This document shows, piece after piece, positions 6,136-22,936 of a DNA stretch of 41,646 nt. A program made the translations under genes and the position numbers. Source of the DNA: Methanobacteriota archaeon. Lineage in GTDB: Archaea > Halobacteriota > Methanomicrobia > Methanomicrobiales > Methanospirillaceae. How positions within the stretch are numbered: the stretch's first letter is position 1; every line of letters begins with the position of its first letter. A model generated the notes under the pieces. It saw nothing but the letters and a program-made list of their open reading frames with translations, searched no databases and had not been told where the DNA came from. The stretch spans positions 1 through 41,646 of the forward strand of contig JAKPSJ010000148.1 of assembly GCA_029555345.1 (NCBI GenBank), given 5' to 3'.

Positions 6136-7622
6136 ATATTTGTATAAGATCCTGCAAATCTTGCATTCTCCTGTAACCATTTAAAAGCATCTCCCTCTGG
6201 GTTGGCTGCGGTGATATCTGCTGTCACTATATAATAAATAGAATTATTTGCCTTCATCTGTAAAATGGTCTCCAATTCTTTGGAATTTGTCGCTCCGAAC
6301 TGAATAGTCCCATCTGTGGAGTTCTTGTAATAGTAATTGAACGGGAGATTAAGATAAGGGGGAACCAACACGATAAAATCGCCATTCTTCGTATTTTCTG
6401 CTATGGTGTGGGTATATGTTCTCCAATCTTCTTTTGTGAGGTTCTGATAATATGCAAGAAGGGAGGGTAAATTTACACACATGATCGCAATAATAAGTCC
6501 AAGGATTATCCATTTTCTTGGATTGAGATGCTGAATCCAGGTATAACTGCATGCAATACCTGTATAAAAAACAGTTAAAAGATAAATTAGATATCGCGGA
6601 TTCATGGTCATTCGGGCAGATAACAGAACACTAATGAGAAAAGGTAGTGTAATCAACATTAGAAACAAAAGGAATGTAGATTTACTATTACGCCATAGCG
6701 GTACCACCCCTAATACAAATAGAATAAGAAACACTACAGCGAGAAATGTGTTGAATGAGGAAAATCTGGTGAAGGATTCCAGTATAAGAGCCGGTCCCAG
6801 AACACCGTATGTCGGTGGTCTCGCTGTGAGGGTGAAATAACGCTCGATAACGATGAATATTAGAGGGGAAATGAATATAATGAAAATCAATCCCGATTCA
6901 ACGATTCTTTTCAGTTCATGGATATCACTCTTGAAATTAACGATTTTTGTAAGGACTGCATGAAGGAAGAGTACTGCAACCGGTATGATCGTATAAAAAT
7001 GCACCCAGAAGCAAAGTGCAGAAATGATGCCGAAGATTATCCAGTCCTTTCTAGAATTGTCCCGGATTGCCTTTACATAGAAAATTATGGCAAGGGTGAA
7101 TACGAAAAGGACCGCCGAATAGGAATAGGCTTCCTGCGAGTAAAATATATGGAATGGAGAGAAGGTGAGGAGTGCAGCACTTAAAATGCCCACTCTCTCG
7201 TCCGAGACTTCTCTCCCAAATAGGTAGAATAGCGGAACCGTGGCGACACCGAGCAAGGCTGGGACAAAACGAAGAATAAATTCAGTGTTTCCAAACATGA
7301 GCATCACATGCTCGATCCAGTGGAACAATGGGGGATGGAAATCGCCACTTTTCATTAATTCCCAAATATCCAACATCGAGGCACTGGATGCATTGTAGGT
7401 GAAAGCCTCGTCAAGCCAGAGTGAATTAAAATCAAGATGATAGAACCGGAGAAATATTGCGATTACAGTTAATACTAAGAGAAGTTGCACATAGAGATTG
7501 TCACGCAAGAGACGTGATATATTGCAAAAACCGCTTTTCTTTTCAGCTTTCTGTACTTCCGATTCAATAGGCTCGTTGATAATTTTCTTTTTTGAAGACT
7601 TTTTATTCTTTCCCCTTTTCAT
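6117..7622 (-). CDS. GT39/ArnT-like membrane glycosyltransferase
   Basis: This is a polytopic GT-C enzyme of about 501 aa. After a lysine-rich cytoplasmic N-terminus (KKSSKKK) come a first membrane helix and the catalytic loop SLWLDEAFTYNASSA with the acidic DE pair. HPPLFHWIEHVML and LRFVPALLGVATVPLFYLFG, both typical of PMT_2/GT39 proteins, follow. About ten more hydrophobic helices and a C-terminal extracytoplasmic part complete it. The ORF track begins at a TTG; I prefer the ATG 12 nt later because GGAGG lies 5 nt before it. It probably moves a sugar from a polyprenyl-phosphate donor, plausibly made by the convergent DPM1-like enzyme, onto a lipid or protein on the outer face. Acceptor unknown. 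It shares the AT-rich composition of the island. Confidence 0.85.
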   Translation of the reverse strand: MKRGKNKKSSKKKIINEPIESEVQKAEKKSGFCNISRLLRDNLYVQLLLVLTVIAIFLRFYHLDFNSLWLDEAFTYNASSASMLDIWELMKSGDFHPPLFHWIEHVMLMFGNTEFILRFVPALLGVATVPLFYLFGREVSDERVGILSAALLTFSPFHIFYSQEAYSYSAVLFVFTLAIIFYVKAIRDNSRKDWIIFGIISALCFWVHFYTIIPVAVLFLHAVLTKIVNFKSDIHELKRIVESGLIFIIFISPLIFIVIERYFTLTARPPTYGVLGPALILESFTRFSSFNTFLAVVFLILFVLGVVPLWRNSKSTFLLFLMLITLPFLISVLLSARMTMNPRYLIYLLTVFYTGIACSYTWIQHLNPRKWIILGLIIAIMCVNLPSLLAYYQNLTKEDWRTYTHTIAENTKNGDFIVLVPPYLNLPFNYYYKNSTDGTIQFGATNSKELETILQMKANNSIYYIVTADITAANPEGDAFKWLQENARFAGSYTNIYTFIS

Positions 7623-17303: not shown

Positions 17304-17361
17304 TACTATGAGTTGCATCGTTGGCTACCGAGAGGGCGAACTGACGGCCCCATGGCATCAT

Positions 17362-17374
17362 TTCCAGTGCAAGT
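17362..17374 (+). promoter_or_regulatory. Partial ORB-like half site upstream of hel308
   Basis: TTCCAGTGCAAGT differs by one base from the TTCCAGTGGAAGT half of the origin recognition boxes, in the same orientation as the full site 66 bp downstream. The G-rich part is not conserved. An AT-rich stretch (TTTTTTATTGAGATCAAATT) lies between the two. It could be a weak Orc1 site; on its own the evidence is modest. Confidence 0.4.
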
Positions 17375-17427
17375 GGATAACATCGGATGACCATGTTTTT
17401 TATTGAGATCAAATTATAATGAGAGTC

Positions 17428-17448
17428 CTGGAGTGGAAACAAAGGGGT
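17428..17448 (+). promoter_or_regulatory. Origin recognition box in the hel308 promoter
   Basis: AGTGGAAACAAAGGGGT is a 17-bp exact match to the ORB just upstream of orc1 (18 of 21 positions overall). It ends 6 nt before the hel308 ATG, downstream of the TATA-like AAATTATAA. Orc1 bound here would cover the transcription start or ribosome-binding region, so direct repression or replication-linked control of hel308 is plausible. The AGGGGT may also serve as ribosome binding site. Confidence 0.75.
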
Positions 17449-17453
17449 TATAA

Positions 17454-19619
17454 ATGAAGGTGAGAGACCTCCCGCTTCCGGGGTACCTCCTGGATACCTA
17501 TGCTGACCTCGGCATCGACGAGATGTATCCCCCACAGGCTGAATGTGTCGAGAAGGGACTGTTCGAGGGGAAAAACATCCTTCTTGCCGTTCCCACGGCG
17601 AGCGGAAAGACCCTGGTTGCAGAGATGGCCATGCACTATCATATCTCCCGGGGGGGAAAGTGCCTTTACATCGTCCCTCTCAAGGCCCTCGCAAGCGAAA
17701 AATACGAAGACTTCGCCCGGAAAAAGGTCAAGGTCGGGATTTCAACCGGCGATTTCGATCGCCGGGACGAAAACCTCGGGCGGAACGATATCATCGTGGC
17801 AACGAGTGAGAAGGTCGACTCGCTGATACGCAACAGTGCACACTGGATCCCCACGATCACGCTCCTTGTCGTGGACGAGGTACATCTCATTGACGAGCCC
17901 AGGCGTGGGCCGACACTCGAGATGGTCGTCACCAAGATGCGGGCGAGGAACGAGAACCTCCAGATAATCGCCCTCTCGGCAACGATTGGAAACCCCTGCG
18001 TGCTTGCGGGCTGGCTCGGCGCAGAGGTGGTGACAGGGTCGTGGCGCCCCATAGACCTCCGCCAGGGTGTCTACTGCAACGGCAGGATCTGTTTCGGCAG
18101 GGAAACACGAAAAGTGCCCCCCGTCTCGCGGAACGAGGATGTCAACCTCCTGCTCGACACGATATCCGAGGGGGGCCAGTGCCTTGTCTTTGTCTCGTCG
18201 CGCAAGAATGCCGAGGCATATGCAAAGAGAGCGGCAGCTGCACTCAAATGCACTGATCCCAGCCTCGAAGGGTATGCTGCCCGCCTGAAGAAGGTGTCGC
18301 AGACCGGCAACGAGGAAGTCCTCGCCTCCTGCGTTGCCATGGGTGCGGCGTTCCACCATGCCGGGCTGTCCCGGGAGTCGCGGGCCATCGTGGAGGAGGG
18401 GTTCAGGAAAGGCCACATACGGTGTATCGCCTCGACCCCGACGCTTGCTGCAGGGTTGAACCTCCCTGCCCGGCGGGTCGTCGTAAGGGATTTCCGCCGC
18501 TACGAGGCTGGCCAGGGGATGGTACCGATACCCGCCCGCGAATACCACCAGATGGCAGGAAGGGCCGGGCGACCAGGTCTCGACCCATACGGGGAGGCGG
18601 TCCTCATTGCGAAGGACGAGATCGAGGCGAAGGACCTCGAGGAATTCTACATCAATGCCCCAGCCGAGGACGTCAACTCCCGGTGCGCTGACGAGTCCGT
18701 CCTGGTAACGCACATCCTCTCTCTAATCGCATCCGGGTTCGCACGCAACCGCGATGACCTGGTAACATTCCTCGACAGGACTTTTTACTATTTCCAGCAC
18801 AAGAAGAGCCGCGTGATGGAGGCTGTCACAAAAAAGGCCCTGGATTTCCTCGAGAATGCCGGGATGATCACGAACCTTGGCGGCAACCTGTCCGCGACTG
18901 AGTATGGAACCCTCGTTTCGCTCCTCTATATCGACCCGCGAGGCGCCGAAACTATCGTCTCGGGTATGAGATCAGCAAAGGGATACTCGGACATGGGGCT
19001 CCTTCACCTCCTCTGCACCACGCCGGACATGTTCTGCCTCTATGTCAGCAACAAGGATCTCCCCACCATGGAAAGGTATCTCCTCGAGAACGAGGATGAG
19101 CTGTGGCTGGACCTTTCGTTTGGTGAGGAGGAGCCCTTTTTCCGTGCTCTCAAGACCGCCCTCGTCCTCCGGGACTGGACCGGTGAAGTCCCTATCGAGA
19201 CCATATGCGAAAGGTATTCAATCGGGGCTGGGGATGTCCATGCTCTCGTCGAGAGCTGCAACTGGCTTCTCCACGCCTCGGGCCGGCTCTCCTCGATGTG
19301 TGCACCACGGTTCACGAGGGCGATACGCGAGTTCGAAGTCTGCATGAAACACGGTATCAGGCGCGAGCTCCTGCCGCTTGTAAGGCTGCGCAACATCGGC
19401 CGGGTGAGGGCTCGGAGCCTCTATTCCAATGGGATAACGACTCCGGATGCCCTGCGTGCAGCCGATCCACGGGTCGTTGCATCCATTCTCGGGCGCGGGG
19501 TCGCCCAGTCTGTCCTGAAGCAGCTGGAACAGGAAGACAGCGATGACCGGGATGGCACGGGCGGGGATACTGGCACTCCCCTGGTCCAGTCCCGGCTCGA
19601 CGCATTTTCCGCGAGGTGA
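17454..19619 (+). CDS. hel308: Hel308 ATP-dependent DNA helicase
   Basis: A 721-aa superfamily 2 helicase of normal length. The Q motif is near YPPQAECVEKG, motif I is AVPTASGKTLVAEMA, motif Ia is YIVPLKALASEK, and the DEVH box is LLVVDEVHLIDEPRRG. Motif III is IALSATIGNP, motif IV is LVFVSSRKNAE and motifs V/VI are STPTLAAGLNLPARR and YHQMAGRAGRPG. The winged-helix and ratchet domains follow, and the C-terminal HhH is near LRNIGRVRARSLYSNG. The very end (STPLVQSRLDAFSAR-like, with QSRLDAF) resembles a PIP-type motif. It unwinds forked DNA at stalled replication forks. The promoter carries an ORB. The cgi121 gene follows after 30 bp. Confidence 0.96.
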   Translation: MKVRDLPLPGYLLDTYADLGIDEMYPPQAECVEKGLFEGKNILLAVPTASGKTLVAEMAMHYHISRGGKCLYIVPLKALASEKYEDFARKKVKVGISTGDFDRRDENLGRNDIIVATSEKVDSLIRNSAHWIPTITLLVVDEVHLIDEPRRGPTLEMVVTKMRARNENLQIIALSATIGNPCVLAGWLGAEVVTGSWRPIDLRQGVYCNGRICFGRETRKVPPVSRNEDVNLLLDTISEGGQCLVFVSSRKNAEAYAKRAAAALKCTDPSLEGYAARLKKVSQTGNEEVLASCVAMGAAFHHAGLSRESRAIVEEGFRKGHIRCIASTPTLAAGLNLPARRVVVRDFRRYEAGQGMVPIPAREYHQMAGRAGRPGLDPYGEAVLIAKDEIEAKDLEEFYINAPAEDVNSRCADESVLVTHILSLIASGFARNRDDLVTFLDRTFYYFQHKKSRVMEAVTKKALDFLENAGMITNLGGNLSATEYGTLVSLLYIDPRGAETIVSGMRSAKGYSDMGLLHLLCTTPDMFCLYVSNKDLPTMERYLLENEDELWLDLSFGEEEPFFRALKTALVLRDWTGEVPIETICERYSIGAGDVHALVESCNWLLHASGRLSSMCAPRFTRAIREFEVCMKHGIRRELLPLVRLRNIGRVRARSLYSNGITTPDALRAADPRVVASILGRGVAQSVLKQLEQEDSDDRDGTGGDTGTPLVQSRLDAFSAR

Positions 19620-20729: not shown

Positions 20730-20750
20730 ACCCCATTATTTCCACTGGAG
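20730..20750 (-). repeat. Origin recognition box 1
   Basis: On the minus strand this reads TCCAGTGGAAATAATGGGGT, matching the TTCCAGTGGAA core and GGGGT end of the other boxes. It is the outermost left box and lies beyond the palindromic repeat. Confidence 0.8.
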
Positions 20751-20870: not shown

Positions 20871-20952
20871 GGCAACAGGCCCGACGCATGAAAATGCCGG
20901 GGGCATTTTCATGCATAGGGCCTGTTGCGAGACGCACCATTATTGTTTTCAT
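20871..20952. repeat. Palindromic repeat copy B, inside the origin region
   Basis: A long hairpin can form. CAACAGGCCC pairs with GGGCCTGTTG, and ATGAAAATGCC pairs with GGCATTTTCAT around a short G-rich turn. The right flank (GAGACGCACCATTATTGTTT) is the reverse complement of the start of copy A between gap and tyrS. It lies between origin boxes 1 and 2, so it may affect origin structure or be a non-autonomous insertion. Confidence 0.8.
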
Positions 20953-21194: not shown

Positions 21195-21215
21195 ACCCCT
21201 TTACTTCCACTGGAA
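21195..21215 (-). repeat. Origin recognition box 2
   Basis: On the minus strand this reads TTCCAGTGGAAGTAAAGGGG followed by T. It fits the box consensus fully and points away from the AT-rich core. Confidence 0.88.
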
Positions 21216-21426
21216 CCCATCAGATGAAATAATGAGGATAATCAATTTTTTAAGGATCTTATGTGTTGCAATTCTATAGAGTTACAGGGTGTGGTTTCCA
21301 TATTTCAATAGAGTGTGGGTATTGAAACTTTACATGTATTTCGTTAAACTTTTATAAAATAAAAGGATAAACAGAAATGAATAGTTCTTATTCTTACAAC
21401 TTCAAACAATGAAGTTCTTACAATAT

Positions 21427-21447
21427 TTCCAGTGGAAGTAATAGGGT
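21427..21447 (+). repeat. Origin recognition box 3
   Basis: TTCCAGTGGAAGTAATAGGG plus T matches the consensus, with changes only near the G run. It borders the right side of the AT-rich core, in opposite orientation to boxes 1 and 2. Confidence 0.85.
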
Positions 21448-21561: not shown

Positions 21562-21582
21562 TTCCAGTGGAAACAAAGGGGT
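21562..21582 (+). repeat. Origin recognition box 4
   Basis: TTCCAGTGGAAACAAAGGGG plus T is the box closest to orc1, about 70 bp before its ATG, and shares 17 consecutive bases with the hel308 promoter site. Autoregulation of orc1 by its product is possible. Confidence 0.88.
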
Positions 21583-21652
21583 TTATTTCGATATCAAACA
21601 GCTGACTTTTTGAGGATTGGCAGGGATATGATACTCTCCCAGAGGGTCAGGG

Positions 21653-22936
21653 ATGTCAGACGAAGAGAGTGCATCGGTAGGACTGTTCAAAAAATACCTT
21701 GAGTCGAATAAAATTTTTAAAAACAGGGAGGTACTTCGTCATTCGTACAGGCCCCAGATACTCCCTCACAGGCGCCCGCAGATAGACCAGGTCGCAGCGA
21801 TCCTTGCACCCTCCCTCCGGAACGAAACTCCCTCGAATATACTCATCTACGGCAAGACTGGAACAGGAAAAACCGCGGTTGTCCGCTACGTCGGGGCAGA
21901 ACTCGAGACTGCCGGGGTCCACCTGGAGAAGATCTGCAGGGTCGTGCACCTCAACTGCGAAGTCATCGATACCCAGTACCGTGTGCTCGCACAGATATCC
22001 AAGACACTCCTTGGCGATGACGAGACGGCAAGCGACAAGGCGCGGACACATATCCCCATGACGGGATGGCCCACAGATCAGGTTTATGCCGAACTCAAGA
22101 ACCAGCTCGAGAGCATGGGAGGCGTCCTTATCATCGTCCTGGACGAAATTGACAAACTCGTGAAAAAGAGCGGGGACGAGACCCTCTATAACCTCTCCCG
22201 TATCAATTCAGACCTGAAAAAGTCGAAGGTGAGCATGATCGGAATTTCGAACGATCTTTCCTTCAAAGACTTCCTCGACCCCCGCGTGCTCTCATCCCTT
22301 TCCGAAGAGGAACTCGTATTTCCCCCCTACAATGCACCCCAACTCTGCGATATCCTGTGGCAACGTGCCGAGATGGCATTCCTCGAAGGGGTCCTCGAGG
22401 AAGGGGTCATCCCGCTCTGTGCGGCGCTTGCTGCCCAGGAACACGGGGATGCACGGCGCGCCCTCGACCTACTCCGCGTTTCCGGCGAGATCGCCGACCG
22501 GGAGGAGGCCGGCCGGGTCAGCGAGTCCCATGTCAAGATGGCGCAGGCCAAGATCGAGGTTGACTCGATGATCGAATGCATTGCAACACTGCCAACCCAG
22601 AGCAAGGTCGTCCTCTATTCCATGCTCCTCCTCGACCAGATGGGCCAGACTATCTTCACGAGCGGAGAGGTGAGCAGGATCTACAAGGAGATCGCACCTG
22701 TCCTCGACCTCGATGTCCTCACGCACCGGAGGATCACGGACCTCATCTCCGAACTGAACATGCTGGGTGTCATCAATACCCGGATAGTGAGCCGGGGACG
22801 CTACGGAAGGACAAAGGAGATGTGGTTTGATACGAATACACGTAAGATATGGGATGTCATCACCTCGGATGCCCGCCTGAGCGCCCAGGGCATCATCAAG
22901 AAGGACGTCCAGTGGTGTATATCCCTGTTCAGGTGA
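21653..22936 (+). CDS. orc1: Orc1/Cdc6 replication initiator
   Basis: A 427-aa AAA+ initiator of normal length. Walker A is NILIYGKTGTGKTAVVRYV, Walker B is VLIIVLDEIDKLV, sensor 1 is in SMIGISNDLSF and the sensor 2 region is HGDARRALDLLRVSGEIADR. A C-terminal winged helix (IYKEIAPVLDLDVLTHRRIT, DLISELNMLGVINTRIVSRG) binds ORB DNA. It should bind the boxes directly upstream and load MCM. AGAGGGTCAGGG precedes the ATG. An Lrp gene and an aminotransferase follow with tiny gaps, so the three may be co-transcribed. Confidence 0.97.
   Translation: MSDEESASVGLFKKYLESNKIFKNREVLRHSYRPQILPHRRPQIDQVAAILAPSLRNETPSNILIYGKTGTGKTAVVRYVGAELETAGVHLEKICRVVHLNCEVIDTQYRVLAQISKTLLGDDETASDKARTHIPMTGWPTDQVYAELKNQLESMGGVLIIVLDEIDKLVKKSGDETLYNLSRINSDLKKSKVSMIGISNDLSFKDFLDPRVLSSLSEEELVFPPYNAPQLCDILWQRAEMAFLEGVLEEGVIPLCAALAAQEHGDARRALDLLRVSGEIADREEAGRVSESHVKMAQAKIEVDSMIECIATLPTQSKVVLYSMLLLDQMGQTIFTSGEVSRIYKEIAPVLDLDVLTHRRITDLISELNMLGVINTRIVSRGRYGRTKEMWFDTNTRKIWDVITSDARLSAQGIIKKDVQWCISLFR

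Follow-up and report, generated by a model that had tools for sequence, protein, structure and literature searches.

DnaA is established both as an initiator of replication and as a transcription factor, with DnaA boxes residing in the promoters of dnaA, nrdAB and uvrB (reviewed in PMC8203912). For the Orc1/Cdc6 proteins of archaea, the described example of transcriptional activity is Orc1-2 of Saccharolobus islandicus, a non-initiator that binds the promoters of DNA-repair genes, reads the element ANTTTC and regulates the DNA-damage response (PMC9738581). Origin recognition boxes (ORBs) have been noted earlier within the DP1 gene of Thermococcales (PMC2643942), and in Haloarcula hispanica the oriC2D element, a 722-bp cluster of eleven ORBs situated downstream of cdc6E, titrates Cdc6E (PMC3936714). 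The open-licence literature searched yielded no account of ORBs in the promoter of hel308. Herein we describe such a box in the window, i.e. the whole 41,646 nt stretch of archaeal DNA that was analysed, the nearest named relatives of which belong to Methanolinea (L161, 85 % identity), and evaluate its conservation across the Methanomicrobiales.

The origin and its gene neighbourhood

The gap preceding orc1 displays the anatomy of an archaeal origin, with two left-pointing and two right-pointing ORBs on either side of an AT-rich stretch (Table 1). The surrounding gene order, tyrS–rio1–KH–hel308–cgi121–moaB–origin–orc1–lrp, is kept in most of 40 long loci drawn from the six families sampled. 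In nearly every member of the Methanomicrobiales, the distance between hel308 and oriC is 4 kb. In three complete records (L015, L019 and L021) the order is broken between moaB and orc1, which is the point at which the linear record opens.

Table 1. Features of the hel308 and orc1 regions, in coordinates of the window
Feature	Sequence	Position	Strand	Remark
Upstream mini-ORB (half box)	TTTCCAGTGCA	17361..17371	.	66 bp centre to centre from promoter ORB
TATA-like element	TTTATTGA	17399..17406	+	31 nt before first base of the 19-bp box; putative hel308 core promoter
Alternative TATA-like element	ATTATAAT	17413..17420		Alternative to TTTATTGA as hel308 core promoter
Promoter ORB	GGAGTGGAAACAAAGGGGT	17430..17448	+	Right half-dyad and G-string; conserved, putative operator
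hel308		17454..19619	+	Hel308/Hjm family DNA helicase, 721 aa
Origin ORB	CCAGTGGAAATAATGGGGT	20730..20748	-	
Origin ORB	CCAGTGGAAGTAAAGGGGT	21195..21213	-	
AT-rich stretch		21214..21428	.	73 % A+T, GC down to 0.23; presumed unwinding element
Weaker origin ORB	CCAGTGGAAGTAATAGGGT	21429..21447	+	
orc1-proximal ORB	CCAGTGGAAACAAAGGGGT	21564..21582	+	Abuts TTTAT; 89 nt before orc1 ATG
orc1		21653..22936	+	Initiator-type Orc1/Cdc6 (AAA+, lid, winged helix); candidate binder of the box

The orc1-proximal ORB abuts its TTTAT element (GGGGTTTAT, 21564–21590) in 10 of the 11 f1 genomes that have an ORB at −86 to −89, an arrangement consistent with autorepression of orc1. Between moaB and the origin ORBs there is also a long, near-perfect inverted repeat (gcaacaggccc...gggcctgttgc, 20878–20927).

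Further ORBs occur elsewhere in the order. A second group is found beyond orc1, upstream of purA and approximately 3.0–3.4 kb past the orc1 start (L025–L031, L033 and L036), in families f2, f3 and f5, and is absent from the genus of the window. A full ORB (AAATCTCCAGTGGAAATCAAGGGGTTTGC) that stands alone, several hundred kb away from orc1 (L118:1398–1416, L119 and L121, with a variant in L130), is conserved in many genomes of Methanoculleus; it comes directly after a gene whose end resembles a SET-domain protein. This distal box is possibly an initiator-titration site, and an Rfam search of the region returned no match.

A 17-bp copy of the orc1-proximal ORB precedes hel308

The first-pass annotation had pointed to a 17-bp exact copy of the orc1 ORB ahead of hel308, and this is borne out: AGTGGAAACAAAGGGGT occurs without mismatch on the plus strand at 17432–17448 and at 21566–21582, the latter copy being 71 nt upstream of the orc1 ATG. 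Two further copies, each with two mismatches, lie on the minus strand at 20730–20746 and 21195–21211. The hel308 box contains the right ORB half-dyad only (GGAGTGGAA, not CCAGTGGAA), such that its match to the orc1 ORB spans 17 bp rather than the full 19–21 bp; within the dyad TTCCAGTGGAA, the mini-ORB core, the right half is exact and the left half reads GG instead of CC. The promoter ORB ends 5 nt upstream of the hel308 ATG (17454), within an intergenic gap of only 150 bp. The product of the gene harbours the Pfam domains helicase domain 4, DEAD, Helicase_C and HTH_61. The half box that had been reported 66 bp upstream is likewise present at that distance, and the intervening region (17372–17429) is AT-rich as claimed, at 67 % A+T.

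It had also been argued that chance could hardly account for these matches, and the controls agree: shuffled windows yield a mean of 0.05 matches to the AGTGGAAACAAAGGGGT pattern, and throughout the 1.39 Mb assembly (76 % complete), scanned with patterns rather than a position weight matrix (PWM), AGTGGAAACAAAGGGGT with up to two mismatches is found in four places, three of them ahead of orc1 and the fourth ahead of hel308, with no match to the reversed-pattern control. A chance match was therefore rejected. A separate sequence within a PMT-family glycosyltransferase gene, CCAGTGGAACAATGGGGGA at 7317–7335, has one mismatch to a reduced ORB pattern and is probably fortuitous.

Conservation of the box across Methanomicrobiales

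Conservation upstream of hel308 in relatives had been set as a test of the proposal, and the proposal withstood it. A PWM was built from 78 ORBs preceding orc1 only, with no hel308 site included, and was applied to the region upstream of hel308 in every genome of the order set with this gene (118 genomes), using as threshold the maximum over 354 dinucleotide-shuffled upstream regions. By this measure, 107 of the 118 regions score above every shuffle, with matches in 20/25 (f1), 23/24 (f2), 5/9 (f3), 12/12 (f4), 23/24 (f5) and 24/24 (f6) genomes of the respective families; the box of the window has an ORB-matrix score of 24.6. All 107 boxes lie on the hel308 sense strand (+). A second collection of 48 further non-identical loci contains matches in 37, of which 36 are in the sense orientation. 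A clear box is absent in the remaining 11 of the 118 genomes, so the box is not essential. Some hel308 frames in f2 (G087:C4:451330–453015, G091:C59, G013 and G025) are lengthened by in-frame inserts to a total of 792–930 aa, and match the query in two pieces.

Beyond the order, none of the hel308 upstream regions from 20 genomes of other classes of the phylum contains an ORB. Taken with the order-wide matches, this indicates that the feature belongs to the Methanomicrobiales, where hel308 resides in the origin neighbourhood. Inheritance from a deeper ancestor was rejected on the same count, and because a class-level search returned the same order only.

As the GGGG of the window's box finishes 6 nt ahead of the ATG, a spacing that would suit a Shine–Dalgarno sequence, the GGGG or AAGGGG string could in principle be a ribosome-binding or generic promoter motif whose likeness to an ORB is convergent. 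This we regard as very improbable. The distance from box to start codon varies, being mostly 23–24 nt, and is too great for a Shine–Dalgarno sequence in one f1 genus (36–37 nt) and in many f6 genomes (~42 nt), on which ground this reading was rejected. In addition, the AGTGGAA portion is conserved as strongly as the G-run, and the same PWM finds no match in 155 upstream regions of rio1, KH, cgi121 and lrp from the same loci, which also led to rejection of a generic promoter motif.

Architecture of the hel308 promoter

When sequences are anchored on the box, a TATA-like peak appears at −31 overall and in f1, at −29 in f2, at −30 in f6 and at −39 in f4 (P 0.0002 to 0.0022 by rolling), and is stronger than the peak obtained when anchoring on the ATG. 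Since this spacing is fixed and the distance to the ATG is variable, the box is tied to the core promoter and not to the start codon. In archaeal promoters, transcription begins some 25 nt downstream of the TATA centre; the box would in this arrangement cover the transcription start and the first ~20 nt. A second regularity concerns the mini-ORB TTTCCA(G/C)TGGA of families f1–f4: of the 58 promoters that have one, 57 place it at a centre-to-centre distance of 63–66 bp upstream of the box, against a chance expectation of ~1.6 % per sequence for a mini-ORB at such spacing. No upstream mini-ORB was detected in f5 or f6 promoters.

The arrangement also survives rearrangement of the locus. In six genomes (G037, G055, G079, G083 and G111, which are Methanogenium-type, and G045), hel308 and orc1 occupy opposite strands and are separated by 23–43 kb, and the box is still at −23; in G041, with 24 kb between the two genes, it is degenerate but recognisable. 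Both its constant position with respect to the core promoter and its conservation ahead of the same gene in all six sampled families are as would be looked for in an initiator-controlled promoter of the DnaA-box type.

These features bear upon two further readings. The first-pass annotation had offered Orc1-controlled expression, a secondary origin at hel308 and an Orc1 reservoir as alternatives; of the first two, the former is favoured by the TATA spacing, the orientation and the persistence after inversion. The co-occurrence of an ORB, a mini-ORB and an AT-rich stretch is what would recommend an origin here, yet there is no unwinding element (DUE) between an inverted pair of full ORBs, only a TATA-like element flanked by a degenerate ORB and a mini-ORB. 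No more than 150 bp separate the two genes, families f5 and f6 lack the second site altogether, and a complete origin, in which inverted ORBs enclose a stretch of 73 % A+T, is situated 4 kb away. Of all the explanations weighed herein, a secondary origin has the slimmest chance of being correct.

A role as an outlying origin ORB or Orc1 reservoir deserves greater attention. Under this explanation the site would titrate Orc1 or organise the origin region, with any effect on hel308 being incidental, as at datA of E. coli and at the ORB-rich oriC2D of Haloarcula. The proximity of hel308 to oriC in nearly all Methanomicrobiales fits such a role, as does the lack of a box in outgroups without a clustered hel308, and three families possess other outlying ORBs 3.0–3.4 kb away, past orc1. 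Titration by origin-adjacent ORBs is, moreover, genetically supported in Haloarcula (PMC3936714). A reservoir would, however, need neither fixed TATA spacing, nor a partner at 63–66 bp, nor a constant orientation to the gene; one or two sites make a poor sink, and the box persists at 23–43 kb after inversion. As hel308 is within ~45 kb of orc1 wherever both share a contig, an origin-region role is not fully separable from a promoter role. Nevertheless, the fixed TATA spacing, the paired mini-ORB and the persistence after inversion favour promoter function, and a reservoir seems unlikely to be the main explanation.

Composition of the box and its candidate binding protein

Across 61 dereplicated hel308 promoters, the GGGG string and the dyad A are invariant (61/61), TGGAA is nearly so, and a T follows GGGG in 98 %. 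The left dyad CC (positions 0–1), which is present at ~95 % at origins, falls to 43 % and 62 % C at hel308; in f6, both dyad halves are found in all 13 dereplicated promoters. With its left half-dyad usually lost, the hel308 box may be of lower affinity than the origin ORBs.

Variation within Methanocorpusculum provides a limited view of how origin and hel308 boxes change together. In eight genomes both carry a rare TCG variant, as TCGAA (G114, G024, G070, G048 and G074) or as TCG(C/A)A (G106, G098 and G118), and in one further genome both read TGG; in six others the variants at the two places are discordant. Strict co-evolution was rejected on account of these six, the agreement being partial only. 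The sharing of variants is thus no more than suggestive. A separate observation in this genus is that the origin ORBs of G054, G078, G065, G030 and G042 have drifted to CCACTCGCAAC...GGGGT with the hel308 box retaining TGGAAAC, offering a natural contrast for studies of Orc1 specificity.

With regard to the protein, the neighbouring Orc1 was aligned with Cdc6-1 of S. solfataricus (2qby_A) and Orc1 of A. pernix (2v1u_A). Its residues R359, R360, R381 and R383 align with R345, R346, R367 and R369 of A. pernix, the winged-helix arginines that read the ORB (PMC9738581), making the initiator Orc1 the putative binder of the hel308 box. A different regulator with ORB-like specificity, be it a paralogue of Orc1/Cdc6 or some unrelated factor serving, for example, the DNA-damage response, is improbable. 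The same assembly does encode a second Orc1/Cdc6 (L242, 27 % identity), and in Saccharolobus Orc1-2 is a proven transcription regulator of that response (PMC9738581). However, the paralogue lacks the ORB-reading arginines of the RR...RGRYG motif, the box fits the origin matrix with its G-string included, and ANTTTC is absent from both strands of 17304–17453, for which reason an Orc1-2-type damage-response element was rejected.

A proposed Orc1 operator and its relation to known systems

On the strength of the observed sites, their order-wide conservation and orientation, their spacing to the TATA-like element and to one another, and the ORB-reading residues of the neighbouring Orc1, the hel308 promoter of Methanomicrobiales is probably a two-site Orc1 operator that represses hel308, tying the supply of a repair helicase to initiator availability. 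In this model, which supposes Orc1 binding, repression and a cell-cycle logic, the G-string ORB would cover the likely start and the mini-ORB would sit ~65 bp, or roughly six helical turns, upstream, such that the TATA box is flanked. Orc1, whose gene lies next to oriC at a distance of 4 kb, would occupy both sites and thereby block TBP, TFB and RNA polymerase. Repression is preferred to activation because the box covers the start site. Whilst free Orc1 is plentiful, hel308 would be held down; once Orc1 has been consumed or inactivated, or titrated by freshly replicated origins, the gene would be released and the repair helicase supplied while forks run. Given a half-dyad box and a G-less mini-ORB, both of suggested lower affinity than the origin ORBs, occupancy would report free Orc1.

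Whether this amounts to an order-wide, DnaA-like coupling, in which the initiator Orc1 serves as an ORB-reading transcription factor with essentially one target, hel308, besides its own locus, is a proposition to which we would give even chances. If true, it would constitute a direct link from an archaeal initiator to the supply of a stalled-fork helicase, and would explain the placement of hel308 in the oriC–orc1 neighbourhood of Methanomicrobiales. It predicts that a footprint of Orc1 would be seen at the start site of hel308, and both Methanoculleus and Methanocorpusculum are culturable.

In comparison with the described systems, the closest is the archaeal ORB/mini-ORB read by initiator Orc1/Cdc6 proteins. 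The hel308 box similarly consists of an A(G/C)TGGAA half-dyad, a spacer and a GGGG string, is matched by a matrix derived from origin ORBs of the same order, and lies near an Orc1 that keeps the ORB-reading arginines. It differs in its location at a promoter start site and not beside an unwinding element, in the usual loss of the left half-dyad, and in having a mini-ORB partner at a fixed 63–66 bp. Like the Thermococcales DP1 ORBs, it lies apart from the unwinding element and belongs to a replication gene in the vicinity of the origin, although those boxes are inside the gene, whereas the hel308 ORB is in the promoter at a fixed TATA spacing. As with oriC2D, ORBs are found outside the minimal origin and near the initiator gene, but the hel308 promoter has one ORB and one mini-ORB in place of a cluster. 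The DnaA-box promoters share the principle that a replication or repair gene carries an initiator site in its promoter, the initiator there serving as a transcription factor through which expression is coupled to initiation; here, however, protein and box are different, the gene concerned encodes a fork-repair helicase of archaea, and its regulation is a proposal. Finally, in common with the Orc1-2 regulon, an Orc1/Cdc6 protein is placed, putatively, at the promoter of a DNA-repair gene, with an initiator-type ORB rather than ANTTTC. In archaea, the Orc1 proven to act in transcription, Orc1-2, is a non-initiator reading a different motif, and it is in this respect that an initiator acting at hel308 would differ.
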